Assembly (NCBI GenBank): GCA_963931925.1
Contig: OZ007567.1
Coordinates: forward strand, 93,587,778 to 93,651,777
DNA length: 64,000 nt
Origin: Onchidella celtica
Taxonomy: Eukaryota > Mollusca > Gastropoda > Systellommatophora > Onchidiidae
Direction: 5' to 3'
Shown here: piece after piece, positions 19,471-47,842 of the stretch
Layout: every line of letters begins with the position of its first letter
Numbering within the stretch: position 1 is the stretch's first letter
The notes under the pieces: model-generated
Told to the model about the DNA's origin: nothing
The model's database searches: none
The model's input: only the letters and a program-made list of their open reading frames with translations
Translations under genes and position numbers: made by a program

Positions 19471-19513
19471 TTTCCAAGTTGTAGACATATTTTTGTAAGT
19501 CAGACCAGCGGCC

Positions 19514-23097: not shown

Positions 23098-23107
23098 GGG
23101 AAGGAGG
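23098..23107 (+). other. Polypurine tract
   Basis: GGGAAGGAGG lies directly against the 3' LTR. Confidence 0.8.
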
Positions 23108-24318
23108 TGTCACGATTAAGGTTGATGACCTTGTACGCCACGAGTATAGAGGGGGGTAAACTTATTAGGGGAGAAGGGGAGTTTTTAAGTTGTTGTCGAG
23201 CATGAAAGATTAAATATCACGAGGAAGGTCGGTGGCCTTGTGCGCCACGAGTCTAGGGGGGGGTGAGCTTAGCAGGGGAAAACACGGTTTTTAACATTGT
23301 TGACGAGCGTGAATAGATACACACGACTCGCTTTAAACTAGTCGCGTGTGCAAAGGCCTCGGGAGTATAAGTAGAGGAGAAGCTCGACACAAGGGGTTCC
23401 CAAATTATTCGTTCCTAGAGGAAGACGCAGCGAGAAGTGGTCCGGGCGACAAGTGGAATGTCGTGCCATGGGGACCAGGGGTGTTATGTATGTGAGGAAT
23501 CTATGAGGTTCCCAAAGTTATTCATTCCTAAAGGAAGACGCAGAATTTATCGGTCCGGGCGACAAGTGGGAGGTCGTGCCAGTGGGGACCAGAAGTGTTA
23601 GGTGTGTGAGGGATCCATGATGTTCACATTTATTTCCCAATAAGAAGAATTTATCGCTCCGGGCGACAAGTGGAAGGTCGTGCCATGGGGACCAGAAGTT
23701 GAGTTCTGATAATAGGATGGGAACCCATCAGAAGCTCGTGAATCTACGATGGCGGGTGTGAACCGTCGGTGTGCAGTGTGTTTGCAAGTTGAAGAGGCTT
23801 GAGGATGGGATGTCGAGAACCCCTCAAGGAACAAGTAATCTACGATGGCGGGTGTGAACTGTGTGTTCTTATTTGTGTGAAGCCAGGGGCGTCTGTTTCC
23901 CCTTTTATCGTCGAAATTAACGATCTAGAAAGGATTGTGTGAACTCTGGAGAAGTGAAACTGCATCAACGAGGAGGGCAGCTGTTGACAGAGACTATTAA
24001 GTATACGTAGTTAAGTTTATAGACAGAGGGATTAGATCTAGATGTGAAACGGGGAATAGATAATAGCCATGATCCCCAAGAGTAAATTTGAAGTATCTCT
24101 GTTTTTGTGATTATGTATGTGATTATCATGAGTTGAATGTTTTGACATAAGTTTTGTCATGCATTTATAATTAAATATCGTTTAATTTAAATCTCACTCC
24201 ATGTGTCTGTTGATCGCTGGTCTGCTTGCTTGGCTTGTTAGCTGGATTTGAAAGGTAAATAAGTTAGGTACTCATCACACACGTGGTCGTGACCATCTTC
24301 ACGCACGTGATCGTGACA
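23108..24318 (+). repeat. 3' LTR (1211 bp)
   Basis: About 99% identical to the 5' LTR, with the same internal tandem repeats (three-unit block at about 23395-23697). Confidence 0.92.
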
Positions 24319-25624
24319 ATACAAACACCAGTGTACAGTTCATCAAAATATGGCAGATCACTGTTACAAATTTTTTTGGCTTTTTTGATTAAAATATTGA
24401 TCTTATTGTTATCTTTTTGTAAGATATTTCCTCCCCAACAGACAACTCCATACATAAAACGCTCTGAATAGCCATGGTATAAAATATTTTCAGAATGCTT
24501 TTGCTAACTTTTAAAGAGCGGAGCTTTCTGAGGAAATACATGCGCTGATTGGCTTTCTTGTATACATATGTTACATGCGCATGCCAGTTAAGCAATGAAT
24601 CAATAGTAGTGCCAAGATATTTGGCCTCTGTGGCAATTTCGACCTCTTCATTGTTGATAGTAAGAGGACAAACAGGATCGTTGTTATTTTTCCTAAAGTC
24701 AAAAACAAGCTTTTTTGTTTTCTTAACATTCAGTAGAAGATAGTTGTTATTACACCAACAATGAAAGGATTGTTACAATGTTAGAATATTCCTGGCCAGA
24801 GTTAGATAAAAGACCTAAAATAGCAGAGTCGTCGGCAAATTTAAGAAGGTGAACGTTATTGTGTGTTACAGTGAAATCGTTTGTATACAATGCGTACAAG
24901 ACAGGTGACAGCACGCAGTCTTGAGGCGCTCCTGTGTTTGTTGTGAGTAATTTGGAAAATGTGTTGTTTATATCCACAAACTGGCTTCTCTGTGTTAAAA
25001 ATTCAAAGATCCAGCTCTTTAAAAAAGAACTTACGTTTAGGTTAGTTAGCTTTTGAAACATTAAGTGCGGTTGTATGGTGTTAAAAGCAGACGAAAAGTC
25101 GACTAGGAGTACACGAACACAGGTTTTACCAGTGTCTAAATGGCTGTAGATGTTATGCAATAAAAACAATAGCCTAAGGCGTCTTCTGTGTTCCTGTTTT
25201 CTTTGTATGCAAATTGCAAAGGGTCAAGATTTTGTTGGACCTCCTTCATTAGTTCAATTAAAACAAGTTTTTCAAAGTATTTAAAGATGATGGAGGTTAA
25301 GGCGACTGGGCGAAGATCGTTCATTCCAGATATTTTTGGTTTTTTTGGGGACAGGTAAGATTTTTGACAATTTCCATAATTATGTTTGGTATATAATGGT
25401 TTTGAAAGGATTTGTTGAAGATGTAAGTAAAAATTGTTGCTAGTTGTTCAGCACATGTTCTCACTACTTTGCTTCCAATGTTATCTGGTCCAGATGCCTT
25501 TCTTTCCTTGACAGCTTTAAATTGTTTCACAACAGCATCATAGTCAAAACAAATATTACATTCATCGTTGGGATCATAGTCAAAACTGTCTCTTATTTCC
25601 TGGTGTTGGTTATGAGACGTTCCT
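24319..25624 (-). mobile_element. Rex1-like LINE, RT region (5'-truncated, decayed)
   Basis: Minus-strand translations in shifting frames give a reverse transcriptase: KASGPDNIGS (about 25500), NDLRPVALTS (about 25320), LLVDFSSAFNTIQPHLM (about 25090), TGAPQDCVLSPVLYALYTND (about 24910) and LKFADDSAI (about 24840). The GAPQ.CVLSPxLYxLYTND wording is typical of Rex1-group LINEs. At least four frameshifts are needed to read it through, so it is dead. The 5' edge near 25624 is a guess, since no endonuclease is seen. Confidence 0.85.
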
Positions 25625-27799: not shown

Positions 27800-30700
27800 T
27801 TACTCAAATAGTTTCCTAAACTTGGCCTCTGTGTTAAACAGGTCTGTCATTTTGCCTCTCTTACCATAGTTGTATTTCGAAATTACCATTTTCCCTATCA
27901 ATATTGCATGATTAATTTCATTCAGAGATTTCTTGTTAAATTTGGCGTGCGACGACAGTCCCAATAAAACGGAACATTTATCTAAAACAATTCTCTTACC
28001 TGTTTCTGCTGTAATTCGGTTTTCGATTTCTTTCCAGAGTGGCTGGACTGTTGGGCAATCATAGAAAAAGTGTTCTAAAAAATCTACCGCTTTACACGTT
28101 GGGCATAAAATTGAGTCTTGTACTCCCATCTTTTTGAATAGTATACTTGTTGGATAAATGTTATTCAGTATTTTCCACTGCAATACTCTTAACCTTGTTT
28201 CTGTGGTGCAGTTAAATGCAATTTTCCAGTGTGTTTCTCTTATCTCTACTTTCAGTTTTTGTTTCCAGAAATTAATTGCATAAGATTGCCTCTCGACTCT
28301 AATCGTTTTTTCAAATCCTTTCCTTCCTATATTACCTATGATTTCCCCTCTGAATTTGATAGATTTCAATGCCCCTGGTCTTTCCTCCTGCAGCAATGGC
28401 TTCTTATAAAGAGCGTTGTATAATACATTGTAGTCTAGCTGGGCACCAGGAAAGGCCCCGTATTTCCCTATAAAGTCATAAAAGGAAATTATGGTGTTGC
28501 TATTACATACATCTTTAACATAGACAATATTTCTCTGTATACAGTTTGGCAAGAGAAGTATGCTATTCTTATACTTTATATTTTTGTTGTTAGACAGTGT
28601 TTCATTTACTGATAATACATTTCCGGTCTCTGGGATATGATTATTATCGATCCATGTCTTCAAAACTCGTCTCCAGAATAGTATTTTAACATTTTCTAGA
28701 CCTTTGAATTCTTTACTCGCAATGTTACTTTCAAAGGCAGCGATGCCTCCAGCTGGAACGAGACATTGCAAAGGAATAATTTTCCAAGGTTGACTTTCAC
28801 CATGAATTAAATTTTCTCCCCATTGAAGAAGAATAGAAATTTGCTTATGAATTATATTTACCATATTCATCCCGCCTTTTTCATATGAACTACACATCGT
28901 AACTCTATTTACTTTTTCAAACGCCCTGGTGTTCGTAAGTCGTCTTTTCCATATAAATTTAAAAAATAACTTATTTATTTTGTTCAGAATATGCAAAGGA
29001 AGCCCAATGCTCTGCATTACATACATAAATTGACTTAGACCAAATGTTTTCACTATATGTATTTTTCCAATTATAGATAGATCTCTTCTAGCCCATAAGG
29101 ACAGTATTTTTTCTGTAGTTTCTATTTTCTTATTCCAGTTTTCCTCCGTCTCCATTGCTGGAGACTTCGAGCTGAAAGTTATACCTAAAATTTTCATTTT
29201 GTCAACCACTTTTATGTCTAGTTCTTCAGCCCACTGAATTCTTTCTTTTCCCATGGTCATCGTAAGCGACTTTTCTTTATTTAATGCCAGGCCTGAGAGT
29301 TCAGTAAATTCTTTTATTTTAGCCAGAATTTCTCTGTAGTCAATTAAGTCTTTCAAAAAGAGTGTTGTGTCGTCGGCATATTGTTTAATTTTTACCTGGC
29401 TCGTTGTGTCCGGTAGTGTAATTCCTCTAATATTTCTTTCTTGTTTAATTTTTAAGGGCCAAAATTTCAACAGCAACCACAAAGATTAGTGGAGAAATTG
29501 GGCAACCCTGCCGTACCCCTCTCTCAATTTTAAACTCTCTGCTAAAGAATCCCCCATTCCTGATGATAGCCACTCGATCTTTCATTAAAGTGGAAATCCA
29601 GTGACGAAAATAACTTCCGAAACCAAACATTCTAAAGGATTCAGTAACCAGGCTTGTTGATATAGTATCGAAAGCTTTTTGGAAATCGAGAGATAATAAG
29701 ACGCTTCCTACTTTCCTTTGCTTTTGATTTTCGATGATATCATCTAATTCTCGTAACATAGTTACTATACTTCTTCCTTTAACAAAGCCCACTTGGTTTT
29801 CGCTGATTATGTTATGCAGGACTTTGTCTAGTCTCAATGCCAAAGTTTTTGCTATTATTTTATAATCCGAGTTTGTAAGCGATATTGGGCGCCAGTTTCC
29901 TAAATCATTTCTATTTAGACCTTTCCCTTTGTGCAAAAGACGTATAATTCCCTTTCTCTGGGTTGGAGACAAACATCCCTTCTGAAAGCTATAGAGATAG
30001 GAGTTCATTAATGGTTTCTTAATTTGGCTCCAGAATACTTTATAAAATTCCATTGGGATTCCATCTAATCCTGGAGCGGAACCATTTTTCATTTTCTTCA
30101 GAGCAGATAAAACCTCTGCATCAGTAATTTGTATTTCGCATTGCTCCCTCCCGACATCACATATCCGAGGTATTTGTAATTCCCTTATGAAATTATTGAT
30201 TCGATTTAAAATTTGTTGTTCACTTTTTTCTTCCCGGTACAAATTTTCGTAAAACTGACAAATTTGGTCATTGATATCAGCAGCGTTATTTAAAACGCTA
30301 CCACAATTGTTAATAAGTTTATGGATAGTATTACTCTTCGATCTCACTTTTTCTAAACCTAAAAAGAACTTTGTGGACTTTTCACCTTCCTCAATCCATT
30401 TTATTCCTGCTCTAATCTGGGCACCTCTTGTCTCATCCATCTGAATTATTTCCAGCTGTTTCTTAGTAGACATAATTTGAGCATAAATCTCTTTACTTTC
30501 AGGGTCTTGGGTGAGTTTTGTTTCTAGCATATTCAATGATTCGAACAGATCTGATTTTCTCTCCCTTTTTCCATTTTGTAGATGGCGACTATATTGTTGA
30601 CTAGCTTCCTTTACATCAATTTTTATCATTTCCCATCTCAATTGGGGGTCCAAATCTTTATAAGTTTCTTCCGTGCGATGTATGGTGTCATTTATTAGGT

Positions 30701-31503
30701 TGACGTAGCTGAGGTCCTTAAACAGACTTGTATTCATTTTATATGAGGATGGCCCCCTATTAAACGACTGGAAGTTAAACGTAATTATTGAAGCTCTGTG
30801 ATCTGAAAATCCAAAACTTTGTATATTAGTTTCCGATACAAAAGTGAGGAGGTTGTCACCCACAAAGACGTAATCTAATCTTCTTGCAATGATCGGATTC
30901 CCTCGGCTCCAGGTATGGCTTCGATCTCCTGGATGTTGTTGCCTCCACACATCCGTTAGCGACAGTTCTTTTATATGTGTGTTTAGAAATTCAACGATAT
31001 TATTCGGATGTTTCGATCCTGAAACAATATCTAAGTTGTTGCACATAACAGTGTTAAAATCACCGAGGTATATAACATGAGTGGTATTTCCATTGTCGAC
31101 ATATTTTTCAATTATTCTTTTCACTTGCGCAAAAAATATACATTTTTCCCTTTCTATACATGGTCCATAAACATTTATTAAGTAGACCTCATTTTCATTT
31201 TCTATGTTCATGTTGGAGATTATCATTCTTTCGTTTTTGTATACAAGTTTTACCTGTTCATCTGCAATAGTTTTGCCGAACATGGTCATAATTCCTTTAC
31301 TTCTGGTGGTCCCTACTGAATAATGAATCGTTCCTCCCCATTCCTTTTTAACTAATTCCATATCATCCTCGAGAAGGTGCGTTTCCTGCATTGCTATCGC
31401 TTCAAATTTGTCAGTTATCATGGTTCGAAAGAGTGCCTTTCGTTTTTTTTTGTTGCCTCAAGCCCTGCACGTTAAGCGTGCATATTTTAGTTCTGGACAT
31501 CAT
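27800..31503 (-). pseudogene. LINE ORF2: APE endonuclease-reverse transcriptase, two frameshifts
   Basis: The likely start is the ATG at 31498-31503 (MSRTKICTLNVQGLR), which leads into the endonuclease after a frame break at a nine-base A/T run (31443-31451). Endonuclease motifs follow: QETHL, YLGDFN, RLDYVF and SDHRAS. The RT has GNWRPISLTNSDYKI, LDFQKAFD, RQGCPISP and, after a second break at a five-base run (29449-29453), QYADDTTLFL. A CCHC-like finger (CPTC…H…C, about 28050-28110) ends the protein. ORF2 would nick DNA and copy the LINE RNA. Both breaks are single-base homopolymer changes, so they may be sequencing errors. Confidence 0.9.
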
Positions 31504-31623: not shown

Positions 31624-32809
31624 TCAGGGCGGCTCCGTCGTGTTTTTCGAAGGCGAATCTGGGACCCTCCTTTTCGTGCTCACTGAGCGAGCTTTACTCA
31701 GGAAGAAAGGTAAAGTGTTTGTTTCTTTCTTCCCCTTTATTTCTGTGCATTTTTCCTTCTTCCTTCCTCTCTCTCCGTCGGTTCTTTGTCCAGTTTTGTT
31801 TTGTTCCCCTATATCAGTCTGTGCGTTCATAGAGGAGTTCGTGTTGTTTTGCTGAGTCTTCTGTGGAGTGTCCTCCTCTTTGTCTTTGTTTATTGTTGCC
31901 TCCTCTTCACTTCCTCTTCTTTGTTTTTCTTTCCTGTTCACTGTTTTTTTTGTTTTCATTTCTTTGCTTTGTCCTTTCTGAGGATAATCAATTACCTCAT
32001 CGTCCCTTCTCCGTTCTCGGCCTTTCTCTTCGGTCGCTTCTCTTTCAGCAAGATCTTCACTCTCCTCCTCATCCTCGGCATCTTCATAACTACTGTCGTC
32101 GCTTTCTCTTGAGATGTCAATAGGTGGTTTTGGTTTGCTACTTACCATCTCCGCGATTGTGTTCCCCAATGTTACGTCTTCCGTCTCTAGTCCATCATTT
32201 TCATTTCGCCTGTCTCTCTCTTCTTCCACTATCTTATCATCCTTGTCTGTTTCCCGGGGTCCATTTTCAAATTCGTTTTTTCTGTGTCCCGGATTACGGC
32301 ACAACAAGCACACTTCCTGGTTGGTGCACATTCTCGCTGTGTGCCCTTTTTGAAGGCACTTCCTACAGACCTGTACCTCAACCTTCATTTCCCTGTAATA
32401 GAGGGAGGCATAAAATGAACCCATTTGGACCCTGGCCGGGAGGGGTTTGTCTGGGAGACTGATCCAGACTATTCTTCTCCCCGAGACCCAAGGGGTCAGC
32501 CTGCCCTGGGGATCTCTCAGCCTTTCCATTTCCAGTTTTGAACGGCTCTTGACCCCCAGTTTATTAAGAGCCGTCTCAATAGCCTGGTTGCTATATGACA
32601 GTGGGATATCCCCCACCGTCAATCTCGTGGCAGGGATTTCCTTACCATCCCCACCTCTTACTAGAAATGGGTTTTGGTTAAAGAGGGGTATGTGCACCCC
32701 TTTCACACTAATTCCCTTCGCCAGGAGCGTGGCCCTGGCAGTTTGCGATTTGGTGTATATTCGCCATAGACCGCCAATTCTTTGGGCTCCCACCGTCTCG
32801 CCCGCGCCG
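31624..32809 (-). pseudogene. LINE ORF1, 3' portion (RNA-binding protein)
   Basis: Reads GGLWRIYTKSQTARATLL…, NPF, TRLTVGDIPLSYSN, a Tx1/L1-type nucleic-acid-binding fold, then zinc knuckles CRKCLQKGHTARMC and CLLCRNPGHRKNEF (last cysteine replaced), then a long acidic and basic tail. Although an ATG at 32835 opens the frame, its first codons are transposon sequence. The real N-terminus is 11 kb away at 43801, in the same reading frame once the insertion is removed. Confidence 0.88.
32806..32809. other. Target site duplication CCGG, left copy
   Basis: CCGG here and at 43695-43698 flanks the 10.9-kb insertion. Removing one copy together with the insertion rejoins the LINE ORF1 frame exactly. 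Confidence 0.8.
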
Positions 32810-32905
32810 GTGTGACATCCTGGAATATCCCCCATCCTATTTTAACCCCCCGGATACTCTGGGATATCCTAGAATATCCCCCCCTATTCTAAAGTATCCC
32901 CCAGC
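32810..32905 (+). repeat. Left terminal region with iterated GGATATCC-like motifs
   Basis: Several partly palindromic units (ggatactctgggatatcc, tagaatatccccc, aaagtatccccc) follow the terminus. Related units fill 43500-43694 in inverted orientation. Such subterminal arrays often bind the transposase. Confidence 0.75.
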
Positions 32906-32910
32906 TCAAT

Positions 32911-33718
32911 TTCACTTTCTTTAGCAGTGGTTCTCAACCTTTTCGGGCAATCGCCCCCTTAGAGTCCAAATTTTCTTTCATCGCCCACTTCCCCCTATTT
33001 CCCGAAAAAGAAAAAAATCCAGTCAAAACAATAGAGATCACTCACAAGTTATGATTTTAAGTTTTTCAGTGCCTTATTAATGGCAATATGCATGCTGATG
33101 ATTCATTATAATTATATAAAGCAGAAACCAGTCATTGCCAAATGCACAAAAAGAAAAACTTTTTCTGTTCATCAAACCCATCGAGGCACTGAAGAAGTCA
33201 ATGATTGTTTTGTATTTGTCCCCAAATGGCTCTCCATTCTGGTTCCCCCTCCCCACCCCCATATCGCTCCTGTTAATCGTCCCCCACTCAAACCCTGGAA
33301 ATCGAATAGGGGGGCGATATCGCTCCCGGGGGGAGGGGGGCGATATCGCCCGCCTTGAGAACCACTGTTCTAAAGTTTTACAGACATCACTGGCGGGGTT
33401 GCAGTCGTTCAAGGTCAGTAGGACACTCTGCCCGTCCCTGACAAAATGCAGTATGTGCATTATAATTATAGTGCGGGGAAAAGCAGCTGTTGAATGAGGC
33501 GGGGTTGGCAGCGAGAAGGAGGGCGCACAAGAGTTTTATACTATCGTAATTATTATTATGGAACGGTCGACTTCCAAGGAGGGAAATGGATGGTGTGACA
33601 GGAAAGATTGTCTCAGATGAGGCTGAAGGAGACGAAAGTTTTTAATGATTAAAACCAAGGATGCAATTCCCTGTAACCCAGGACAAGTTTTTGAAGGATC
33701 TCTAGCTCAGAACACGCT
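32911..33718 (+). repeat. 0.8-kb repeat, copy 1 (contains a hAT MITE)
   Basis: Matches 41797-42673 in the same orientation, diverged and with indels. Shared words include gacatcactggcggggttgcag, aatgcagtatgtgcattata, cttccaaggagggaaa and gctcagaacacgct. Both copies carry the same MITE at the same place, so the MITE insertion came before the duplication. Confidence 0.85.
32925..33367 (+). mobile_element. hAT-like MITE, copy 1 (443 bp)
   Basis: Termini CAGTGGTTCTCAACC and GAGAACCACTG are the inverted repeat common to many hAT elements. Eight-base flanks ttctttag and ttctaaag are an aged target duplication (6 of 8 match). The interior has CGATATCGCC-type palindromes and no coding capacity. Confidence 0.82.
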
Positions 33719-34127
33719 GTCTCTTTTTGCTTTAACTTTGGTAAAGCATGGAATGAAAATGAATAGACAGGACCAAGGTCTACACCAAGAACAGAATACA
33801 GCAGACTTACTATCGTGAGATAATGACAGTGTGTGTTTCGTTTAGTCTTGAAATAATGAATTAATAACAACGGCCTATTGTGTCGTGCAAGCGCGCAATG
33901 GGGGCTATCGCGTTAACAAGGCTTCTTGCCCTCGTGGACGTGACACCTGCATGCTCCACATTCGGCACGCGTTATGTCATCAGTCCGCTCAAGCAATTGT
34001 AGGGGTCGGCTCAAAACCCAGATTATGTCACATTTTGCTAAAAACTGTGCTGACACCAACAGAAACTTCAAGGAAAAGCTCATCTTTTAAAAGCCTCGAC
34101 TTCATCATTGGACCACCCAATGTGCCT
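33719..34127. other. Non-coding, nothing recognised
   Basis: Only short frames without domains. Confidence 0.5.
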
Positions 34128-34270
34128 GAACTGTGCTTGCTATAATACATGAGATGCCATTTAGTGTTGTTTTAAACAAATAATAATTTTGGATCGGGCA
34201 TACTTGTTTGTCTTCTCAGTACTCTTCTAATCAATAGCACAAATCACAACACGGATCCTTCTCTTCAACA
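34128..34270 (+). repeat. 143-bp direct repeat, copy 1
   Basis: Matches 36392-36535 closely (gagatgccatttagtgtt, ttggatcgggcatact, caatagcacaaatcacaac). Copy 2 adjoins the 3' side of the pogo fossil, so the repeat may be that element's tail. Confidence 0.75.
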
Positions 34271-34350
34271 TCATAAGATGGGACGAGTTTCAATTGATGG
34301 ACCAGACTGTAAAGAAAGGGCTAAGTCCATCCACTATAGTAACCTACTAT

Positions 34351-34766
34351 AATAATAATAATAATAGTTCGTCCATCAGGTATGATGATGACCTTAACAA
34401 CACCAGAGGAATAAAGAACAGAAATTGTTGAGAACTTCAACACATGGACAACAAAGAGAACTAAAGGACACAGAGGACAGAATGGAAAGACTGTTCTTTC
34501 ATGACCTATGGCTTCTCATGTGACTGACAAGTCCTATTTTTGCCCCACAGACCCTTCCGCACAAATGACAAGAGCGCTCCGTTGGTCCAGTACCACTGGG
34601 CCTTTTCCCGCGCCGTTCTCTTTTTTTGACAGCCTGCCGGACTCTGTCAGCTTCCCATGCTTTGCTGCCTCTGGTAAGGGCCGCCCTCCAATTTGCACGA
34701 TCAAGCGAGAGCCCCTCCCACCCACTCACATCAATGGCAAAGGCCCTCAGTGATTGCTTGAGAGTG
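34351..34766 (-). mobile_element. RTE-like LINE fragment (C-terminus and 3' end)
   Basis: Minus-strand frame 34729-34499 reads …DRANWRAALTRGSKAWEADRVRQAV… and ends in a C2H2-like finger (CHLCGRVCGAKIGLVSHMRSH), a C-terminal arrangement common in endonuclease-RT LINEs annotated as CFDP2-like. The 3' UTR ends gtcatcatcatacctgatgg followed by acgaac and an ATT repeat, the usual 3' terminus of this group. It is severely 5'-truncated. The exact clade is uncertain. Confidence 0.75.
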
Positions 34767-35638
34767 TCTTATATCACTGTGTTAAATGTCAAAACAATTC
34801 ATGTATTTAAATCTGTACCAAAAAAAAAAATCCGCGAAAATAGTTTCAGATCAACGTTTGAATTTCTTCCAAAACTAAATAGGAAAAAGTGAGGACAAAC
34901 GGAATGGGAGCCATCCCTAATAATAGAGCAATCCATGGAAATCAGTGCAGGATTCACATGACCACTGAGGCTCAAATTTCCTATCACATGAAAAGCTTTT
35001 CAAAAAACTGTCCTACTATTCTAGAAAGAGAATCCAATTGATTTAGTTTGTATGAAAAGAAAATATATATAGAGTAGTTTTTTTTCACCTTCCAAACATA
35101 ACCCTACATTACATATAACATGCATTATGAGTATGTCAAATGGGAAGGACTGAAATTATCATGACTTTTTCTCAGTGCACTGGAAAGAATATATTTTTGA
35201 CAGTTTTTACCGCTATTTGTTATGATAATGACGATATAATCTTATCACGCAAGACATTCCACTTCTGCTAACAGTCCGACGTGCTTTAACATCACAGGGT
35301 TCCACGATGACTCTATGGGGTTAGATATGGGTAAAAGTCAAAGGCATTGTCTTGACCTTCTTTTTGTATATGGAGATTTTAAAGTTTGTCTTTCCTATCC
35401 TTACAGCATTGTTTGGCCATCATGTTAGTCTTTCTTTGGAAAGTTACATAAGAAGTAATCGTGGTTTTGAACCAATCCCTTTACATTTTTCAAGCCCTCC
35501 CGATACATTAATGGGATCAAGTAACTCTGAGCACAGGCTAGCGCCAGTTAACCCTCTATGGCTATGGGAGATTTTTTGGGTGTGCTTTTTTTCATGAGGT
35601 CCATTTTGTTATATTCCCTATCATTATTCACATTAAAA
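34767..35638. other. Non-coding, nothing recognised
   Basis: No domain-bearing frame, no clear repeat structure. Confidence 0.5.
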
Positions 35639-35905
35639 CATGTGGTCTAGAGGCAAGGTGCTCGCCTCTCATGCCAAGGGTCCCGGGTTCTAAACCCGGG
35701 CAGTGCAGGCATGTTGGAAATTGGATTTTTCTCATATTTTCAAGTCCCTGGTCCTATTGGGGGGGTAGGATCGAGTACCTAGTCTTCTCGGATAAGGACG
35801 AAAAAATTCGGAGGGCCCGTGTGCACGTTGCGCACGTTAAAGATACCTTGGCAGTTGGAAATCGTAAAGAGCAGGCCGAAAGGCCGCTGCCCGGGCAAAA
35901 TTGAA
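35639..35905 (+). mobile_element. tRNA-derived SINE
   Basis: The head resembles a tRNA with a box A (tggtctagaggcaaggtg), anticodon-like loop ctcatgc, and box B (ggttctaaacc) inside a perfect T-arm cccggg/cccggg. The body contains cccgtgtgcacgttgcgcac followed by gttaaaga, resembling the Nin-type conserved SINE core (cccgtgtgca…gcgcacgtaaaaga) recalled from invertebrates. An RNA polymerase III transcript mobilised by a LINE is expected. Confidence 0.78.
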
Positions 35906-35959
35906 AATTGAAATTAATAGATTAAAATTTATCCATATCACCCCCCCCCCCCCCGCCAG

Positions 35960-36076
35960 AATTTATTATTCATTATTTAATATATATTGTTATTAATAAA
36001 TATTCAAATATTATTTGAGTTGTGTGTGTGAACTGATGTGAGTTGTGAACTGCTGTGAGTTCTGAACTGCGTCTAA
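35960..36076 (+). repeat. Dispersed repeat, copy 1
   Basis: Matches 55729-55829 (aatttattattcattattt, ttcaaatattatttgagttg, then repeated gtgaactg). Copy 1 is inside the 10.9-kb transposon and copy 2 outside it, so it is an independent element. A run of C precedes it. Confidence 0.75.
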
Positions 36077-36189
36077 CAGGCTGCGTTACAATTTGCTCTG
36101 GGATAGAGAGAGAGAGTGAGCGAGACAGGGAGAGAGAAAGCAGCAGTGCAGTGTGTTGAGCGCTTCGCAGGCAGCTCCATTCTGCTCTG

Positions 36190-36285
36190 TGGTTGACATG
36201 TTGTTTCTGTAAAGGGCATAGATCATTTTTAAATGGATATGCGCTATATAAACGCTATACATTATTATTATTATTATTATGTCAC
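36190..36285 (+). mobile_element. SINE/LINE-type 3' tail
   Basis: The sequence gcgctatataaacgctatac followed by an ATT repeat is the 3' end shared by many invertebrate and fish SINEs. It could be the displaced tail of the SINE at 35639 or a separate fragment. Confidence 0.55.
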
Positions 36286-36391
36286 TCAGAAATTCATGAT
36301 GCTGTTCTTGCTGCAAGACTTCAGCGTACAAAGGCAGTCAATCGCTGTGGTACATCCTGGCTTATACAACATAAACATGCAACAATAACCC

Positions 36392-36535
36392 GAACTGTGC
36401 TGGCATAATACACGAGATGCCATTTAGTGTTATTTTTTTTTAAAATAATAAATTTGGATCGGGCATACTTTTTTGTCTTCTCAGTGCTCTTCTACTCAAT
36501 AGCACAAATCACAACAGGGATCCTCCTCTTCAACA
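36392..36535 (+). repeat. 143-bp direct repeat, copy 2
   Basis: See 34128-34270. The 2.1 kb between the two copies holds the LINE fragment and SINE. Confidence 0.75.
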
Positions 36536-36689
36536 GTATAATTATTCCTCATCACCATCATCTTTCTCTTGAGTTGTAGCCATGTTTACTATGACATCCG
36601 TGGTCATTTCCTCTGTTGTTCTCAGTCCATCGTCAATACTTACACATTCTTATGCCTTTCAAGCAAATTACTGCAATCATGTTCAGGTT

Positions 36690-37500
36690 CATCTGTTTCT
36701 ATAACCACCCACTAACTTGGTTCTTCAGGGCAAACGAATCCAGCTTGATTGAAACAGTCAGTAATTGTTTCTTGAGTAACTTGCTATCCTGCTATGCGAA
36801 GGAAGTGTAGAGCATCCAAGATGGTGATCTTGACTACTGGTATGTCGTTATCAGGTTGTGGCTTCTGACTTTCCGTCCATGGGATACGCTTTTGGGCCAC
36901 TATTTTCCTGTACACCATTTTCAGCACTTTGATTATGCGCTGGTCACAGAGTTGGGCAATGATTGTTGTGATGGGCTGAGATACGAGGCGAATTGAAGCA
37001 AATTTGGTGCGCTGTAGTGTTATCGGCGATTAAGGGAACCTTCGACCTGAGATGGTAAATTTCCGATCATAGATATGGACCCAGTCTTCAAAGATATTGG
37101 AGGTCATCCAGGTTTTGCGATTGACCGTGGAGGTTACAGGCAGACATCTCATTTCTTAAGCATTGGGTTTTCAGTGCTTTACCCATGACAAGTAATGGTA
37201 ACTTGTTAGTGCCGCTCACATTTGTTGCCACGAGCACTAGCAGTCTTGCTTTCATTGTTTGTCCCCCCAACACATTTTTCATCATGCAATACATGAGTTC
37301 AGTTTGGGACACACTGGTAGAACAATCCAGTTTCATCGACACTGTGTTTAAAGTTATTCAAGATCTCGTTCAGTTGAATTTTTTGACCAGTTTTCTGCGG
37401 CGTCGGCTGTGCAACAAGCGATTCCCTGTAAACAGTTTTGAAAGGGTCCCGTTTCGTCTCTTAAATCGCTCAATCCAGGAGATACTAGGTCACTGTCCGT
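36690..37500 (-). pseudogene. pogo/Tigger-type transposase fossil
   Basis: Reading minus-strand frames in sequence gives the family's landmarks in order: a CENP-B-like segment (SWIERFKRRNG, about 37450-37482), LLVLVATNVSGTNKLPLLVMGK (about 37200-37265), EDWVHIYDRKF (about 37060-37090), PLIADNTTAH with the second catalytic aspartate (about 37015-37050), IIKVLKMVYRK, and ITILDALHFL … ITDCFNQAGF (about 36730-36830). Stops and frameshifts break it in several places. These DDE transposases cut and paste at TA sites, and no terminal repeats were identified. Confidence 0.82.
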
Positions 37501-38492
37501 TGATGTCAGTATCGATGCAAATTCCTGTGTTTTTTCAAACAGAATTGCCCCCTCCCCCCCCCCCCCCCCCGAGATCGAGGTACCAATCGATCGTTATGTA
37601 CTTAATTTAAACCAGATTAGCAAGGCTTTTTCGCGTACGGTGGCGAGTGGGCTGAAATTGGCACACTGGCACTCGATGTAAGCTGGTTCATACCTCACCA
37701 GATTGGCTATAATGCTGCCAACATCGTGTGAGTTTTGGGCTGAGCTAAATTACTAAATTATAAAATTCATATAATATTTCTTGGGTTATAATTCTACTTA
37801 AGACCATTTATACCATTATGTATGCAACCTCTCTTCTCTCACCAACAAGGTAGTGAATTAGCATCGATAATGCATTGATACTTTTAATATCAAACAAAAT
37901 TAACAAGTCAGGTCAATAATGCAACCCCAAAGACACGATTTAAAATTTACAACCTTATTATTGTTCAGATTAAAGGAAATTGCTGTGGTTTGGCAGACAT
38001 TTCTGTGTGCATACCATTCGCTTTAGGACTTCAAGCTCCACTGGTTATTTTGTAACATTGACTGATCGTTTATCACTATTATTATTATATTATGGTTACT
38101 ATTAAATGGGAAACAGTACCACAGGAATGCCAGATTGTGCAAATGTCAGTATTGCTCCTTTTGGATTGTCAAATGACAAAAAAAAAAAAAAAAGCACAGT
38201 AACTGTTCATTTTCCATTTTTGTATTCTGTGATGGGCGCGGCGTAGATTTTGGGCCTAGTGGAAAAAGGGTTAAAGTGTATTGCAGTGTGACTAAAAGAA
38301 GACTTTCGTCTTTTTTTTTTTTTTTATCGTATTATATGTATCGCGGACAAAGAGTTCCAGTCTTCACTTTGCCGATGTGCGCCCATCCTACTACGTTTTT
38401 CATTTGCTATACTGTTTTTTTGGTTGCTGTCGCCGAACAGTCGTACTTCAAGTTTGACAGTTCCTTCTCTGCTGCCACCCTATTAGACTGCA
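37501..38492. other. Region upstream of the integrase-Ulp1 gene
   Basis: AT-rich with several homopolymers (C-run at 37553-37570, A-run at 38179, T-run at 38312). It probably holds the gene's promoter and 5' UTR. A pyrimidine-rich stretch ending ccctattag six bases before the ATG could be a splice acceptor. No open frame with a recognisable domain. Confidence 0.45.
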
Positions 38493-40289
38493 ATGGATGC
38501 ACACGAATATAGTGAAATTGTCAAGTTCCTCTCGAGTGAAAAACAGTCAAGGCGGTACTGGACGCAAGAGATTATCAATATGCCTCTAGAAAATCAGAAA
38601 AACGCCAAAAGAGGAATGAAGCAGAAATGGCAGCATTTCTTCGCCAGAGACAATTTGATTTATAAAAGAACAACGAAGATGTACATGGGACAGAAAGTGG
38701 AAGTCTACCTTCGAGTCCCCCGAACGGATGAAATTCAAGACATATTAGAGAAATTGCATTCTAGTGACACCGGGGGTCACCTTGGGGTGAATAAAACGTA
38801 CGAGAAAGTTTCCACACGGTATTACTGGAAAGGAATGAGCCAAGCCATTCAGGAATTCTGTGGGAACTGTTTGAAGTGTAAGGCTGCCAATAGGATGCCA
38901 AAAGATTCGCACCAGTTGCACCCAGTACCCATTCCTGAAGAATGTTTCAAACAGTGGGGTATGGATCTGGTAGGGCCCTTACCCACGACGCAGGACGGCC
39001 ACAGATATTTAATGGTACTAACAGAGTACACTACAAAATGGGCTGAAGCTTTTCCCATTGTCGACAAGTCAGCTATCAGTACTCTGAAGGTATTAAAGAA
39101 AATCGTCGGCCGATTCGGATGTCCATTGTCCATCATTTCGGACCAGGGCAGAGAATTCAACAACACACTGAATGACTTATTTTGTACAAAATTTAATATC
39201 CAACGCAAGGTGACGTCAGCGTACAGACCTCAGAGTAACGGCCTCACAGAGCGTTTTAATCAGACGCTGTGTTCCATGCTGGCCAAGTACACTAACGGCG
39301 GCGAGACGGACTGGGACGAAAACATCGATCTGCTTCTGTTAGGCTATAGGAGCAGCGTCCATGCCTCAAGCAAATTCTCTCCTTTTGAGCTTGTTTATGG
39401 GACAAAAGCACGGCTTCCAATCGACGTTGACTCTACTGACCTATCTTGTGAAACGGATGAAATTAACACAGAAAATAGGAGCAAGCAATTAGCTGTCCTT
39501 GCAGATGTCAGGAAGGAGGCTGTTCAAAATGCAAGGAAAGCCCAGGAGAAAAACAAAGAGGACTATTCTAAAAGAAGAAAAGGCAACGTCAAATGTTTCG
39601 AGCCTGGCGATCTTGTGTTTTATGCAAACCTGAGATCACGGACGAGGAAAGGGGGAAAGCTGGAATCGAAGAACTACGGGCCAGTCAGAGTTGAGACCTC
39701 CCTGGAAAAGGATCTCTATAAGCTGTGTGGACTGAAACAAAAATATCACGCAGATAACCTGATGCTGGTGCCGCCTCCGAGCAAGAAGTCAAAAACTGAT
39801 GATGATTGGCTGGATGATATAACAATAAATACAGCCCAGAGACTGATTTCAAGTCAATATCCCGGACTTCTAGGCTTCCAAGACACAGTTATTGGTGCCG
39901 CAAAAGGGTACAAATACGTCGGAACTGCAAATACCGTGGTGCAAATTCATCATACAAGAGGTAACCACTGGGTGGTTTCAGCGTGTCTGAATGGCAAAGT
40001 ATTTGTCATTGACACATTGTATGAAGAAATCAGCTCCGACCTAATGTCGCAACTGGTGGAAATGTACAATACCTGCGAAACACTGCCTTTAGTGGTCGAT
40101 ATGATGGCGTGCCAAAAACAGGAGGGTGGAAATGACTGTGGCTTGTTTGCAATTGCTTTTGCAATAGAGATAGCAATGGGTAACGCAGATATTTCATCCA
40201 TACATTTTCAGCAGTCTCGGATGCGGTCACACTTGGCTAAATGTTTGAAATTTAAAATGCTGGAACCGTTCCCTAAAGGTACTAATTAA
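38493..40289 (+). CDS. Gypsy-type integrase fused to Ulp1-like protease (Ginger1 transposase)
   Basis: An uninterrupted 598-codon gene. Residues 89-129 form the H2C2 zinc finger (H89, H96, C126, C129). The integrase core has D158 (GMDLVGPL), D217 (ISDQG) and E253 (GLTERF), the perfect D,D(35)E spacing. A GPY/F-like domain follows (NYGPVRVE, about 394-401). From about 437 a C48/Ulp1-type cysteine protease carries H492 (GNHWVV), D507 (VIDT), Q543 and C549 (GNDCGLF), the complete catalytic set. The integrase should cut and join the transposon ends. The protease may process SUMO or similar conjugates (inference). ATG 38493 is the first in frame and precedes every domain; a short upstream exon is possible. 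All active-site residues are present, unlike every other transposon gene in the window. Confidence 0.93.
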   Translation: MDAHEYSEIVKFLSSEKQSRRYWTQEIINMPLENQKNAKRGMKQKWQHFFARDNLIYKRTTKMYMGQKVEVYLRVPRTDEIQDILEKLHSSDTGGHLGVNKTYEKVSTRYYWKGMSQAIQEFCGNCLKCKAANRMPKDSHQLHPVPIPEECFKQWGMDLVGPLPTTQDGHRYLMVLTEYTTKWAEAFPIVDKSAISTLKVLKKIVGRFGCPLSIISDQGREFNNTLNDLFCTKFNIQRKVTSAYRPQSNGLTERFNQTLCSMLAKYTNGGETDWDENIDLLLLGYRSSVHASSKFSPFELVYGTKARLPIDVDSTDLSCETDEINTENRSKQLAVLADVRKEAVQNARKAQEKNKEDYSKRRKGNVKCFEPGDLVFYANLRSRTRKGGKLESKNYGPVRVETSLEKDLYKLCGLKQKYHADNLMLVPPPSKKSKTDDDWLDDITINTAQRLISSQYPGLLGFQDTVIGAAKGYKYVGTANTVVQIHHTRGNHWVVSACLNGKVFVIDTLYEEISSDLMSQLVEMYNTCETLPLVVDMMACQKQEGGNDCGLFAIAFAIEIAMGNADISSIHFQQSRMRSHLAKCLKFKMLEPFPKGTN

Positions 40290-41796
40290 AAATTCACCAT
40301 TAGCATGTCTCGGTACTTTTTTGTAGGACCTTTGAAACCTCAATGCCAGCTGCTTTTGGTGACGATTTAGATAATATCACCGGTTTATAAGGCTGTTGAA
40401 ACCTATGTTAGATTTTTTTGTCCATGTTTTGATTTGCTGAATATCTATATCAGAGCAAGTTGTATGTCATTTGTTATACATGTAATACTTTTCCTTTTGA
40501 AGCAGTCTCATTCTCTCTTTATTAACAAAATTAATTAAAGAATGGATCTTTAATAGTTAGATCATAATTACTTCTATGGTTCATCTCATTACAATATTAT
40601 TTTATGCACAGATATGCATATAGAATGTGATCTAGACAAAGAACGCGACTAGAGCTGTATGAAATTTGTTTCAGGTTCAGCGCAAAATTTGTGACATTTC
40701 ACTGCTGTTAAATTTTTTTAATTCTTACATGTTGTATTCATTCCTTCATTTAAAAAAATAAAAAATAAAAATAAAGTTCCTACGTCAAATGAGGATGCTA
40801 CAGTGGAATGTTGTGAAATTAAGTTTGGAAGCCAAGACTAAATCTAATTTCTAAGTTTATGATCTTCTGCATTATCATTGATTATTGGTATTGTTCTCAA
40901 TGAGTGCAGCGCCCAATTGACTTTCTTTCATGTATACTCGGATACCTCGCTTCTATTGCAACATCCTCATTTGATGGTGCCTTTAAAAACAAAACAAAAC
41001 AAACCAACAAACAAACAAAAAAAAAAAAAGGAAAGAAAAGAAAACACAAATGACCACATTTTTGCATAACGCTCCGCAAAAAATTAGCCCCGATGATTAC
41101 AACTCTGCATCTTCTGAATGCTACAATATGAGGGGCTATAGGAGAGCTAGAGAGGAAAAGAGCAAGACAGTGTTATGTGCTGGTTGTTGTTTTCTTGCTA
41201 TTATTTCACTAAGTCACTCTTTATGTGCTGCACACTCGACATGGGTGTGAGATGACACACGCCCACATAAAACAATGAACGAACTGGTGTCGGCTCATGT
41301 ATTTATTTACATCAGTACAAATAGTACTTGCATGTAAATGAAAAGGTTCTTTTATTTTACTAATCTAACTCCCGAATTTTCGACTAAGTCTATTTCTGAT
41401 AGAAGTTACTAATGTGTTAACCCCACGCTGGCTAGGTCCCGACTGACTTGTTTTTGCCATAAAGTTTCCTATACTTTAAAGCTCTTACTAACTTGTTTAA
41501 AACTCGGGGGATGGCGATACCATAGCACTAAAAAATATTCTAAGGCTCAAAATCAGATAGTGAGGGAAGTGCGATAACAAGTGACCATCACTGTCTCCAA
41601 GTAAATAACTTACAACTAGTGACATTCCTATTTAATGTTAGGAGTTGAGTAACCCTGGGTACCTGGCATACCCTATTCTACCTGGTGATCACATCATAGC
41701 ACAAATAAACACCAGTAAGACCTTTCCTGGGAGAAATCTTCTTTTGATCATAAAACTGGCCCGATTGTTGCTGTCTAAGTTGGGGGGGGGGGGGTG
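40290..41796 (+). other. 3' flank of the transposase gene
   Basis: AT-rich. AATAAA-type signals sit in an A-rich run near 40758-40776 and could end the transcript. It contains the 190-bp inverted-repeat segment at 40785-40974. No other gene was seen. Confidence 0.5.
40785..40974. mobile_element. Small MITE-like inverted-repeat segment (190 bp)
   Basis: tcaaatgaggatgctacagt at the left end is matched in inverted orientation by the right end (13 perfect bases, 20 of 24 overall). No target duplication was found. Confidence 0.5.
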
Positions 41797-42673
41797 TTCA
41801 CTTTCTTTAGCAGTGGTTTTCAACCTTTTTCAGGCGATCGCTCCTTAGACTCCACAATTTCTGTCGTCGCCCATTTTTTCCCCTATTTCCCGAAAAAAAA
41901 AAAAAAAGACAAAAAGCATGTTCATGATTGATTATAAAGCAGAAACCATTCTTTATCATATACACAGAAACACACACACACACACACACACAACCCTTTT
42001 CTGTTCATCAAATCCATCTAAGCTGTAGAAGAAGTCAATGACTGACAATTGACATGTATTTGCCCCCAAATTGCTCTTCATTGCTGGTTCCCCTCAACTC
42101 CCGTATCCCCCCCGCTCCTCGTTTTCGTCCCCTTGTCGCCCTTTTCTTCGTTTCCTCCCCTCCCCCCCCCCCCCTTCCCTCTGGAATTCAGAATCGCCTC
42201 CCCAGGGAGCTGATATCGCCCACGTTAGGAACCACTGTTCTAACGTTTTACTGACATCACTGGCGGGGTTGCAGACGTTCAAGGTCAGCAGGCCATTTTG
42301 CCTATCCCATGAGTGAAGGCTGGCAAAATGCAGTATGTGCATTATAACAAAGTAGGGAAAAATAGTTGTGGCGGCCTGGACTAAAGCTCCCCCTTTCACA
42401 TTTTGCTGATTGTGTCCTACTGTATTGGAAGAAATGCTTCCAGAAAATGAGGCTTTATGACAGGGAGAAGGAGGACGCACACGAGTATTATGCTATCGTT
42501 ATATAATGGAATGATAGGCTTCCAAGGAGGGAAAAAGTTGGTGTGACCCTCAGAAAGGAAAGATAGTCTCAGATGAGACTGAAAGATGGAAAAATTTAAA
42601 TGATTAAAACCAGGATGCAATTCTCTGTAACCCAGAATAAATTTTTTAAAGGATCTCTTGCTCAGAACACGCT
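41797..42673 (+). repeat. 0.8-kb repeat, copy 2 (contains a hAT MITE)
   Basis: Homologous to 32911-33718. Both copies lie near opposite ends of the 10.9-kb transposon in direct orientation. Confidence 0.85.
41811..42237 (+). mobile_element. hAT-like MITE, copy 2 (427 bp)
   Basis: Starts CAGTGGTTTTCAACC and ends GGAACCACTG. Flanks ttctttag and ttctaacg correspond to those of copy 1. It contains an AC microsatellite (about 41968-41992) and poly-C. Confidence 0.8.
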
Positions 42674-43499
42674 AAGTTCTGTAAAAAGGGTTGGATCTGG
42701 AAGGCAAACAAAATTTGGGACTGTATGGGTACACTTGAATGGGATCAGCTGCTTGTCACTGAACAGATCTTCACTTCGACTTCTATGTATATATCCCTGA
42801 ATGGTCCAAGAATCTTTTTTTTTTTTTTCGTCTGTCTCGAATCTGCATTGTCTTTGAGAGTTGTTTGATTGAATTGATGATGGAATCCATTCTTGACATT
42901 GCGACCCTGATTAGGACGTTTTGTCCATGAGATCCCAAAACAGGACAGTCTGTAGGTTTTGATGACTATTTCTCATGTAAACTAGAAACAGACTCTCCCA
43001 GTTGATGCTGCCATTTGCTCAGATTTGGTGACAGACTACTAATGTCTTGCAACATATTAGAGGATTGATAACAAAGGGCCAATTACATCTTCGCACTTCT
43101 GTTGATACTGAATGTACTTTATTCTCATTGCTCCATAGACCACCACCGAAATTTAATCTCTTTAATTACTACTACTACTGCTAAAAGCTCCAGAAAAGGG
43201 TTTGGTGGGTGGATGGGAGGAGAAAGATTTGTGCCCCCAGTTATGTCAGGCTATTTCCTGTCACTACTCGGTCTAATGTTAAATTGTCAAACATTTGGAA
43301 TGGTCGGCTTAAAACACATGTTAAGTCACACTTTGTATGTGTGTTTTGTGTGTGTGTGTTTTTTTGTGTGTGGCAGAGAAAGATTGTACACAGAAAGGCA
43401 CACGAAAAAAAAAAAACGGGGGAAAGGATACCCAAAAACAAAAAAAAGGTGGGGGTTAATTTGTTATGGGGGGATAAAATAGGATGTCGCTTACCCATT
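42674..43499. other. Non-coding right part of the transposon
   Basis: No domain-bearing gene. A weak similarity to the end of a LINE polyprotein at about 43217-43335 is discussed among rejected items. Confidence 0.45.
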
Positions 43500-43694
43500 G
43501 GCAAGTATCCCCCATCCTATTTTAACCCCGGGGGATAAACTGTTATAGAGGGGGATATTCTAGGATATCCGGGGGGATAAACCAGAATATTCCAGAATAT
43601 CCGGGGGTTATTCTAGGATATCCTAGATTATCCGGGGGATATTCTGAAATATCAGGGGGGATAGATTTTGGGGGGGATAATCTGGGATACCACA
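43500..43694 (-). repeat. Right terminal region with iterated GGATATCC-like motifs
   Basis: About six degenerate units of 20-32 bp (gggggatattctaggatatc, ccagaatattccagaatatc, ttattctaggatatcctaga) end at the inverted terminus. The 20 bases cccccatcctattttaaccc also occur in the left end at 32827-32848. Confidence 0.75.
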
Positions 43695-43801
43695 CCGGAC
43701 GCCCTCTCCGCGGAGGAGCACACATCGAAAGGGGACAAGCCCCTCTCTCCGTCAAATGGGAAGGCTTTCGCCAGGAAAAAAACCGGTGGAGTTGACGACA
43801 T
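43695..43801 (-). pseudogene. LINE ORF1, N-terminal 35 codons
   Basis: ATG 43801 opens MSSTPPVFFLAKAFPFDGER… and reads to the CCGG site. With the 10.9-kb insertion and one CCGG removed, codon phase continues straight into the ORF1 remainder at 32809, so this is the displaced start of the same gene. Confidence 0.85.
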
Positions 43802-44280: not shown

Positions 44281-46262
44281 AATATTAATGGACGTACTTT
44301 CGTATAAAGGGGGGGGGGGCGTGGCAGAGTTGAAGCCAAGCGTATGTCACATTGTGATAGGTTGGCAGGTCATTGAGTAAGTTTGTCACTCCAGCTTCAT
44401 TATCTCATCGCCAATGTACTTATAATGCATACTGGCTTTAATCCCTTTCTGTCACTGTCTGTCACTGACCCTATAACCCGCCGGGGTCGTAGGGGCGCTG
44501 CAGTGACGAACGCTGCACTAGCTGGCTCCACTTGTGGCCGCAGTGGGTGAGTGCCTTTCTACGAGCGTGAAATTGGCTGATCGAGGTGACAATTTGTTTA
44601 AACTGACGAATGTATAAAAGTTTCAAAATGTAATTGCTCTGTTCAACAGGGGAAGCCAACAACAGGAATCCAAGTTTCCAATTCTTCTTGAAAATGGGGG
44701 ATCCAGATGATGACGTTTCACCTATTGAAACTGCGGAAATTTGTGAAAGCATCAGAATGTAAAGGCTTTTGTGTCATACAGTGGACATGCAAGCTAACTT
44801 ACATCTGTGTACCAATTTTCATATAATTTTGTTCAACGAGTAGTTTCGGAGCCTCTTCGATGAACACATTGATAGGCATAGCTCCTGTGAGAGATTCATT
44901 CATTTTTATTTGCGGCATTAATGAATGAATAACACCGATCTTTGTCAAAACTTTACTGTTGTGGGCGAGACCAGAACCGTCTTAGCTCATGGACAAACTG
45001 TGCAGTTTGCCCAGGGATTTGGAGGGTTTAGGGGGGCCCCATGCATGCAAATTTCTGAGTAGTAGCCTAGGGGAGGGTCGCAGCCTAGTGCTATGACCAG
45101 GGGCCATAATTGTGTTAAGACCGCCCTGGGAAGACACAGGATTATGTACCAGCTAAGAAATGAATACGTTATGAGATAACATTTTGGACAGCATTTACAT
45201 TTATCAATAACCACTGGCAGAGACCCTCGGCGTTGTACGGGATACTTAGACAGTTGGTTTCAGTTCCGGGTGATTTGGGTGGATCTGCTTTGTCATATCC
45301 GTTTCTTCAGATTTATTTTGTTTTTAAGTCTTACTGCTCTCCTCTTACACACATTGCCCTACGTACCCCCTTAGCCTTCAAGGTCGAGAATATCACGAAA
45401 CGTCATTGTTCCCTGATTTCGTGAGTTAAAAAAAGGAAATGGGGGCGGAATCAGCGACACAAAGCAAACTCAAACAATACTTCCCCACCTTTTCAAGCCT
45501 CCAAATGTAAAAAAAAGAACTTTCTGCAGGTCAAAAGGAAGGCACCTGTAAAATGGCAGGAAATGTGAACTGTAAGAGCGGCGGTAGCTCTTGTTTAAAT
45601 CGTGGTTTGCAATGTCAACGTGATCAGTTACCACTAGACATCATTTTTTTTTTATAACGTGGTATAAATTGCGTGTTAGGTATTGGGTGTTTTTATACCG
45701 GGCATGACATTGGCGGTGTCACTGTCAGTCGGTGCTTAGAAACAGAGAGAGAGAGACAGACAGACAGACAGATAGACAGAGAGAGAGAAAGAGGGGGGGG
45801 GGAGGGAGGAGAGAGATATAATGAGAAAGTGAGAGAGAGGGGGAAGAGAGGGGGAGTGGGAATGTGTGAGAGAAAGAGGGAGAGAGAGAGAGGACGGTAA
45901 TGAACATCCGGGTTATAGTTGCTATGAGTGTTTCGATTATCTAATGTATGATGGCCATGTTTCATATACTTTAAGATGATCAAGATATGTTTTATGTTTA
46001 AATGTTTCCATTTTTAGCAGTGTCACTGTCAATCTGATTACTTATTGATTGATTGATTGATTTTTGAGATTTATTCATTTATTCATTTTGTAGAGCTCAT
46101 GCAATTGAAATTTGTGGAAAATGTGAAATCTGATGGTGGAATTTCGAAACGAAATTGACCTGTGCAATCGACCTGTTCTTATTCATTTCAGAAATGTTCA
46201 CAGTTGTTCAGTGACTGTCTTAAGAAAACTTTCTATGACATATTCTCTGTTGTACCTCCAAA
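44281..46262. other. Intergenic, upstream of the transporter gene
   Basis: No recognisable gene. Contains a GA/GACA microsatellite at 45742-45893. The transporter promoter must lie in or beyond this stretch, but no clear core element was found. Confidence 0.5.
45742..45893. repeat. GA/GACA microsatellite
   Basis: Runs of GA, GACA and GGGA. Open frames across it are repeat artefacts. Confidence 0.9.
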
Positions 46263-47842
46263 ATGAACGCTGCTGTCAGACTGGAGTGTTACAGATACAG
46301 CACTTACGTCGGCTGTTTTATGATGCTGGTCGCAACAAACATCACTTGGTTCTGGGGAAATTTGCGCGTCTACAGTGACTCTTACTTCAGAGACAGTCTA
46401 GGCCCAGATTGTGGCTTGAACATGCCTTGGACCATTTCAGCGGGTTTGATGGGCACTATGCTGGGAGTTATGACGTCTGACTCAATGGGCAAGTATCTGG
46501 GAAGTCGTTGGACCTTCGGCATTGCATCAGCCTTATACAACTCTGGCTTAGGCGTCGGGTATTTAGCTGTCCAGTATTCTAAGACAGCTCTTGTGATCTT
46601 GATGGGAGGAATAATTGGGGCCGGTTACGGAATTTCCACAGGTCACGTTTTGCACTTGGTTAGAACTTGGTGTGGCTCTAAACGTATAGGATTTTACAGT
46701 GGCATTGTCACCACGGGGACAGGAGTAGGAGCCATTATCTTGAATCAAGTCATTACTACGTATATCAATCCAAACAACTTGGCCCCTGATTTGAACGATG
46801 GGTCTCAGGGCATTTACTTTACTCAGGATGAAATCCTCGACCGAGTGCCCAGCGTGTTTCTTGTTCTCCTTGGACTGACAATTTCGTGCCATATTACAGG
46901 TATGTGTCTCATCAGAGACGCCAGATATGTCCTCTCAATTGGAAAAGAAGGAGATTTGACAGAGACCAAAAACCTTTCTAATGGTGCTGGCAAAGAAGAA
47001 CAAGAGATGAGTAGCCATCAGCTCGAAAGGAAGGCTTTGTCCAACAGTAATAAAAAGACCCATGTATATCATTCTGCAGAGTGTGAGCAAAATCTCTCAA
47101 AGACTGTTAATGAAAACTCTGTTGAGGGTCACAAGGGCGAGGAAAGTCCACAAAACGGCAATTTAAATCAGCCGAAAACATTCAGCACTGTTGTGATACA
47201 CGGCCAGGAACAACAGGAGGACACCACAGTCATTCAGGAGGTAGATCAAGGTACGAGAGATCGGTCACCACTACAAGTAATCAGGAGTCCAACCTTCTGG
47301 ACAATGTGGCTATCTCTCTGCTGTTCTATCTTTTGCTTTCTTGTATTTTCAAATTACTACAAAGTGTACGGTCAGATCTGGATCAAAGATGATTTTTTTC
47401 TGGCCGCTGTGGGAACTATAGTTATGGTTGGTTCGTGCGTTGGCAGGGTTTTCTGGGGGGTGGCGATAGACATGGTGGGGGTTAAGACAGGGATTATCTT
47501 CTACATTTTGTCGTACACCGTAGGTTTAGCATTTTGGTATTTTACGGTCAGAGTCAATAGATGGTTTTATTTCATTTGGACTATTACATTTGGCGCTTTT
47601 CTTTGCGGACTTCGGATGGTTTACGCAATGGGAGCCTTAAAGATGTTTGGACGTTCGTATTATACTCATAATTATGGGCTTCTCATCTCAGCAAATATGA
47701 TAGTTAACCTTGTTGGGCCACCCATTATAAATGTAATTATTGGACTAGGCGGGTGGTTCGCACTTTTTTTACCAGCGCCACAATAGGCGCAATTTCTTTA
47801 ATTTTACTTATTATATTTTTACCAAAATCAGAGTTAGACTGA
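46263..47842 (+). CDS. Major facilitator transporter (oxalate/formate or monocarboxylate type), one frameshift
   Basis: A single-exon gene for a membrane carrier of about 526 residues. TM1-6 lie at roughly residues 14-34, 55-75, 83-103, 107-128, 140-162 and 193-214, followed by a hydrophilic loop of about 120 residues and TM7-11. The A-like motifs are SDSMGKYLGSRW after TM2 and GVAIDMVGVKTG after TM8. In the given sequence the frame stops at 47786, just inside TM12. A run of seven T (47764-47770) with one more T would continue into a hydrophobic helix and a stop at 47840-47842, so I annotate to there. It most resembles the OFA/MCT-like transporters of invertebrates; the substrate cannot be told. 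It may be an allele, an error or a young pseudogene. An ATTAAA lies at about 48083. Confidence 0.85.

Follow-up and report, generated by a model that had tools for sequence, protein, structure and literature searches.

Results

A 10,884-bp insert splits ORF1 of a long interspersed nuclear element (LINE) in the genome of the gastropod Onchidella celtica, and it is almost certainly a Ginger1 cut-and-paste DNA transposon that jumped into a young LINE. The insert lies in a 64,000-nucleotide stretch of contig OZ007567.1 (assembly GCA_963931925.1, positions 93,587,778 to 93,651,777 of the forward strand), referred to here as the window; coordinates are those of the window and are collected in Table 1. 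An earlier note, made from the letters of this DNA, had proposed that a transposon with inverted TGTG ends and CCGG at both edges separates the two parts of ORF1 by 10,885 bp, a figure that measurement of the insert reduces by one base. Read directly on the plus strand, the left junction consists of GCGCCGG followed by TGTGACATCC (32810/32811) and the right junction of GGATACCACA followed by CCGGACG (43694/43695), so that the edges are as the earlier note described them. When the insert and one CCGG are removed, a single frame of 429 codons runs on the minus strand from the ATG at 43801, and the codon phase is restored as had been claimed. The CCGG spans codons 35 and 36 of this rejoined ORF1, while the other two frames contain several stops each (120 codons inspected). 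With a limit of E<=1e-5, ten related ORF1 proteins were obtained; all ten cross the joint gap-free, and glycine 36 is invariant among them.

The 1.14-Gb source genome was searched for empty sites with a query of 201 bases over the left edge, and the best 40 of 580 candidates were scored. Each of the 39 other loci returned matches query bases 1-111 (window 32700-32810), ending precisely where CCGG ends. When all 39 copies (L002-L040) were aligned to the joined flanks of the insert, the two halves of ORF1 adjoined over the joint with one CCGG in every copy, and 202-204 of 204 bases were identical; 38 copies are gapless at the joint, while in L018 an extra base stands two positions past CCGG. Because these 39 empty sites carry a single CCGG, they show the insertion, its exact ends and its 4-bp duplication. 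Non-adjoining halves were not seen among the returned copies, and the splitting of ORF1 by a transposon is thereby borne out. We conclude that the insertion is confirmed at base level.

The host LINE, presumably Tx1-like, matches the majority of the 39 copies at all but 1 of 595 positions. To judge from this sequence comparison the host LINE is very young, and therefore the insertion into its ORF1 is recent. The endonuclease match in ORF2 of this LINE falls below the cut-off. Five of the 39 LINE copies (L006-L010) lie within about 0.57 Mb of contig C14 (49.44-50.01 Mb), and in L006 and L007 a 27-base repeat array is expanded within ORF1.

The termini of the insert, TGTGA and TGTGG, agree with the TGTNR ends of Ginger1, and its CCGG flanks with the 4-bp duplications of that group, which are CCGG in 75% and CCGT/ACGG in 24% of cases (Bao et al. 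2010, PMC2836005). The ends show inverted similarity of 76.6% between 32826-32897 and 43663-43587, and the outer ends also match; these are imperfect terminal inverted repeats within the range of about 40-270 bp that characterizes Ginger1. The TGT ends, 4-bp duplication and Ginger1 label given in the earlier note thus agree with the published description, as does the Ulp1 tail described below. A 24-mer of the left end (32826-32849) has a direct copy at 43506-43529, beside the inverted copy, which suggests that the right end is made of several end-like pieces.

As a control for chance, TGTG...CACA pairs 2-15 kb apart were counted in the window (n=19,774). Equal 4-bp flanks were found in 86 of them, and CCGG, CCGT or ACGG flanks in a single one of these 86, namely the insert under study, whose end-alignment score is 35, the runner-up reaching 11. 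The window also contains 2,477 pairs of CCGG sites lying 0.5-20 kb apart, and TGT...ACA stands just inside two of these: the insert itself and a pair with the same left edge that ends at 38770.

Between the ends lies an unbroken gene for a 598-aa transposase, and the link that the earlier note had drawn between the ends and an integrase gene inside holds. The protein has an H2C2 zinc finger at residues 79-133 and a Gypsy-integrase-like DDE core, D158-D217-(35)-E253 (DD35E), a combination in keeping with a Ginger1 transposase. Ginger1 proteins, all but one, also carry a C-terminal OTU or Ulp1 domain (PMC2836005), and in the window protein alignment and predicted fold point to Ulp1: residues 437-598 form a predicted SENP/Ulp1-fold domain in which D507, Q543 and C549 are invariant in 8 alignment rows and H492 stands at the place of the histidine. 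The tail was modelled separately because the PDB matches of the full-length model are mostly integrases and tell little about the tail. Compared by sequence with solved structures, the C-terminal part yielded four weak matches, the best being a ULP_PROTEASE domain protein (E=0.14). A tblastn comparison of the transposase with phage records gave no match.

We placed the transposase in a quick tree of 81 rows, consisting of the window protein and 80 of the 116 usable among 120 listed matches (357 matches in total). It groups with P0001 and P0034 (support 99) and lies on the same side of the tree (support 92) as all 7 rows labelled as bearing a protease or PHD domain, P0002 being counted as protease-bearing from the alignment and not from the Pfam list; the labelled proteins P0008 and P0031 were left out of the tree. 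This label requires 5 changes on the tree, a number as low in 14 of 500 shuffles. Rows bearing a reverse transcriptase (RT) fall on the opposite side in 20 of 22 cases.

The interior of the insert is laden with older repeats. In addition to the pieces listed in Table 1, a 152-bp direct pair lies at 34125 and 36389 (87.7% identity), and the frame 34499-34768, presumably a LINE tail, has a weak C2H2 match below the cut-off. The name hAT was assigned to the inner repeats by their end sequences, and we assume that the DDE_1 fragment is of the Tigger/pogo kind. Scans of the window for tRNA genes and Rfam families called nothing, the SINE-like stretch included. A repeat of about 110 bases is common to the interior of the element (35957-36080) and to 55726-55833, 20 kb away. 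The Ulp1 domain, the very young host LINE and the older repeats that bring the element up to 10.9 kb all go beyond the earlier note, whose interpretation is supported.

Table 1. Features of the insert and of the LINE that it interrupts (window coordinates).
Feature	Position	Strand	Remarks
Whole insert, read as a Ginger1 DNA transposon	32811..43694	+	10,884 bp; defined by its edges and by 39/39 other returned LINE copies without it at the exact site
Target-site duplication CCGG, left copy	32807..32810	.	single CCGG in 39 empty sites
Target-site duplication CCGG, right copy	43695..43698	.	single CCGG in 39 empty sites
Left terminal region	32811..32905	+	TGTGACATCC..., carrying GGATATCC-type repeats; matches the right end in inverted orientation
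Right terminal region	43465..43694	-	minus strand TGTGGTATCC..., longer array of GGATATCC-type repeats
Transposase gene, unbroken	38493..40289	+	598 aa; H2C2, DDE core, SENP/Ulp1-fold tail
Older direct repeat, copy 1	32911..33718	+	contains hAT-like non-autonomous element 32925-33367, CAGTGGTTCTCAA ends
Older direct repeat, copy 2	41797..42673	+	65% overall, 80% in right part; hAT-like element 41811-42237
tRNA-like stretch, presumably of short interspersed nuclear element (SINE) type	35640..35910	+	read from the sequence
DDE_1 transposase fragment, two separate open frames	36784..37357	-	37088-37357, E=0.0049 (below cut-off); 36784-37029, E=2.3e-5
Start of split LINE ORF1	43699..43801	-	ATG at 43801
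Remainder of split LINE ORF1	31624..32810	-	CCHC zinc knuckle
LINE ORF2, two overlapping open frames	27800..31457	-	RT, zf-RVT, weak endonuclease match

Other mobile elements occupy the window. Three near-identical repeats of ~1.29 kb (1-1289, about 6388-7676 and 12777-14065) enclose two Gypsy-like inner regions that are 99.6% identical, an arrangement resembling a tandem retroelement with shared long terminal repeats (LTRs). In these regions H2C2 precedes RT and RNase H, and a Pfam search at E<=0.01 found no rve core in either copy; the gene order is one that we associate with Gmr1-type elements. Farther along, an LTR-like pair (18006-19217 and 23108-24320, 99.2%) encloses gag (SCAN, weak CCHC), H2C2 and an integrase C-terminal domain. 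Since three frames scanned in this element (18006-24320) contained no RT, it is apparently non-autonomous. An open frame at 46239-47786 encodes an MFS transporter; at E<=1e-20 it has a single relative in the database, a protein with 26% identity from Elysia crispata.

Discussion

The size of the insert raises the question of what moved. Tabulated Ginger1 lengths run from 2.6 to 7.1 kb (PMC2836005), and the 10.9-kb size lies above them at least partly because the insert holds older repeats. Since the host LINE is younger than this decayed load, the repeats probably moved inside the element, which would have transposed whole; this conclusion is drawn from the age of the LINE at a single copy. 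We therefore lean towards the view that this Ginger1 was mobile recently and moved as a single unit of 10.9 kb, larger than any that Bao et al. tabulate, with several kilobases of decayed transposons inside it.

The alternative that survives best is that a compact Ginger1 of the usual size entered the LINE and that the hAT-like, DDE_1 and SINE-like pieces accumulated at the locus afterwards, so that a 10.9-kb unit never moved. The published lengths would favor this course, as would the fact that the extra sequence consists of other repeats. However, pieces that arrived after insertion into a LINE with 1 difference in 595 positions should be almost undecayed, whereas the DDE_1 piece is broken up between two frames, and the two hAT-like copies, which have their flanks in common, show a similarity of about 65%. 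Nor is there an exact 8-bp duplication round the hAT-like pair (TTCTTTAG versus TTCTAAAG or TTCTAACG). We consider later loading unlikely.

It is far less probable that the insert is the remnant of a Gypsy-type LTR retrotransposon or a Ginger2 element. Its integrase domain is indeed Gypsy-like, the top-scoring solved structure is Ty3 integrase, and the GPY/F motif is imperfect; yet the ends are inverted, not direct LTRs around an RT, and a Pfam search of 10 distinct insert frames, of 93 listed, found no RT, RNase H or gag. The target CCGG differs from the RTATAY of Ginger2, and the Ulp1 fold in the same protein is described for Ginger1 and goes unmentioned for Ginger2 in the parts of Bao et al. 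cited here (PMC2836005). Finally, a misassembly, or two unrelated breakpoints at which CCGG and TGTG look alike by chance, would accord with our having one locus in one assembly, but we reject both as negligible in view of the base-exact empty sites in all 39 returned copies and of the insert standing alone among the 86 flank-matched pairs of the chance control.

Several points nevertheless weigh against the identification of the insert as a recent Ginger1. The transposon is known here from one copy, its length of 10,884 bp is outside the published range (which is descriptive, not defining), and the LINE copies used for dating are the best-matching ones, which biases the host toward a young look. 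In the tail, Pfam C48 reaches only E=0.03, below the cut-off, and a YopJ-type acetyltransferase scores slightly better (E=0.0044, also below it), which is why the Ulp1 assignment rests on alignment and predicted fold. The place of GPY/F aligns as GPV, likewise in P0001, its nearest relative. Ahead of the zinc finger the N-terminal stretch aligns with relatives but shows no plain YPYY (Y/F-P-Y/F-Y/F). In the tree, which was built by a quick method, the dividing branch falls short of the 95 mark, two RT-bearing rows share the side of the window transposase, and the RT label shows no more clustering than expected from shuffling (18 changes against a shuffled mean of 19.5, as low in 119 of 500). 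The rows are database matches, with no named Ginger1 reference protein among them; Repbase entries for 23 Ginger1 and 30 Ginger2 elements were employed in PMC10045372.

If the insert is a Ginger1, its transposase domains lead us to expect cutting and joining of the Gypsy-integrase type. The transposase would bind the repeat-rich inverted ends, cut at TGTG/CACA and join the 3' ends to the target strands at CCGG with a 4-bp stagger, in the manner of retroviral and Ty3 integrases; gap repair would then generate the CCGG duplication. During transposition the Ulp1-like tail may act on conjugates of SUMO or ubiquitin. Bao et al. called the mechanism of Ginger1 excision unknown, and suggested that Ulp1/OTU tails take part in transposition, for example via DNA repair (PMC2836005).

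The element belongs to an already known kind, and its merits are the clean proof of insertion and its size. The site combines a base-exact Ginger1 insertion and an unbroken transposase gene with dozens of empty counterparts in the same genome. This makes it a good starting point for testing excision and insertion by a transposase of the integrase type that ends in a SUMO-protease-like tail; apart from that value it is an ordinary nested transposon. If a 10.9-kb unit did move, large passenger DNA would be no obstacle to such an Ulp1-tailed transposase, which could carry host sequence along.

Comparison with known systems

The insert most readily compares with the Ulp1-tailed Hydra elements Ginger1-4_HM to -10_HM, with which it has in common TGTNR inverted ends, a 4-bp CCGG duplication and a single-gene H2C2 and DDE transposase with a C-terminal Ulp1 domain; the transposase frame is intron-free, as in Ginger1-4_HM and -10_HM (PMC2836005). 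It is unlike the Hydra elements in its length (10.9 versus 3.8-7.1 kb), in having GPV for GPY/F and no clear YPYY, and in the older repeats that it carries inside. Ginger1-1_AC, from the sea slug Aplysia, is likewise a Ginger1 from a mollusc, but it measures 4.3 kb, carries OTU instead of Ulp1 and has two introns (PMC2836005). Ginger2/Tdd elements resemble the insert in their Gypsy-integrase-like transposase, TGTNR ends and mostly 4-bp duplications, whereas they differ from Ginger1 in their AT-rich RTATAY target and in having neither GPY/F nor YPYY; the cited parts of Bao et al. mention no Ulp1/OTU tail for them (PMC2836005). Host genes derived from Ginger1 transposases, Gin-1/Gin-2 and Imagin (PMC2836005, PMC12863088), are without inverted ends, whereas the gene described here is enclosed by TGTG ends, which a target duplication flanks.
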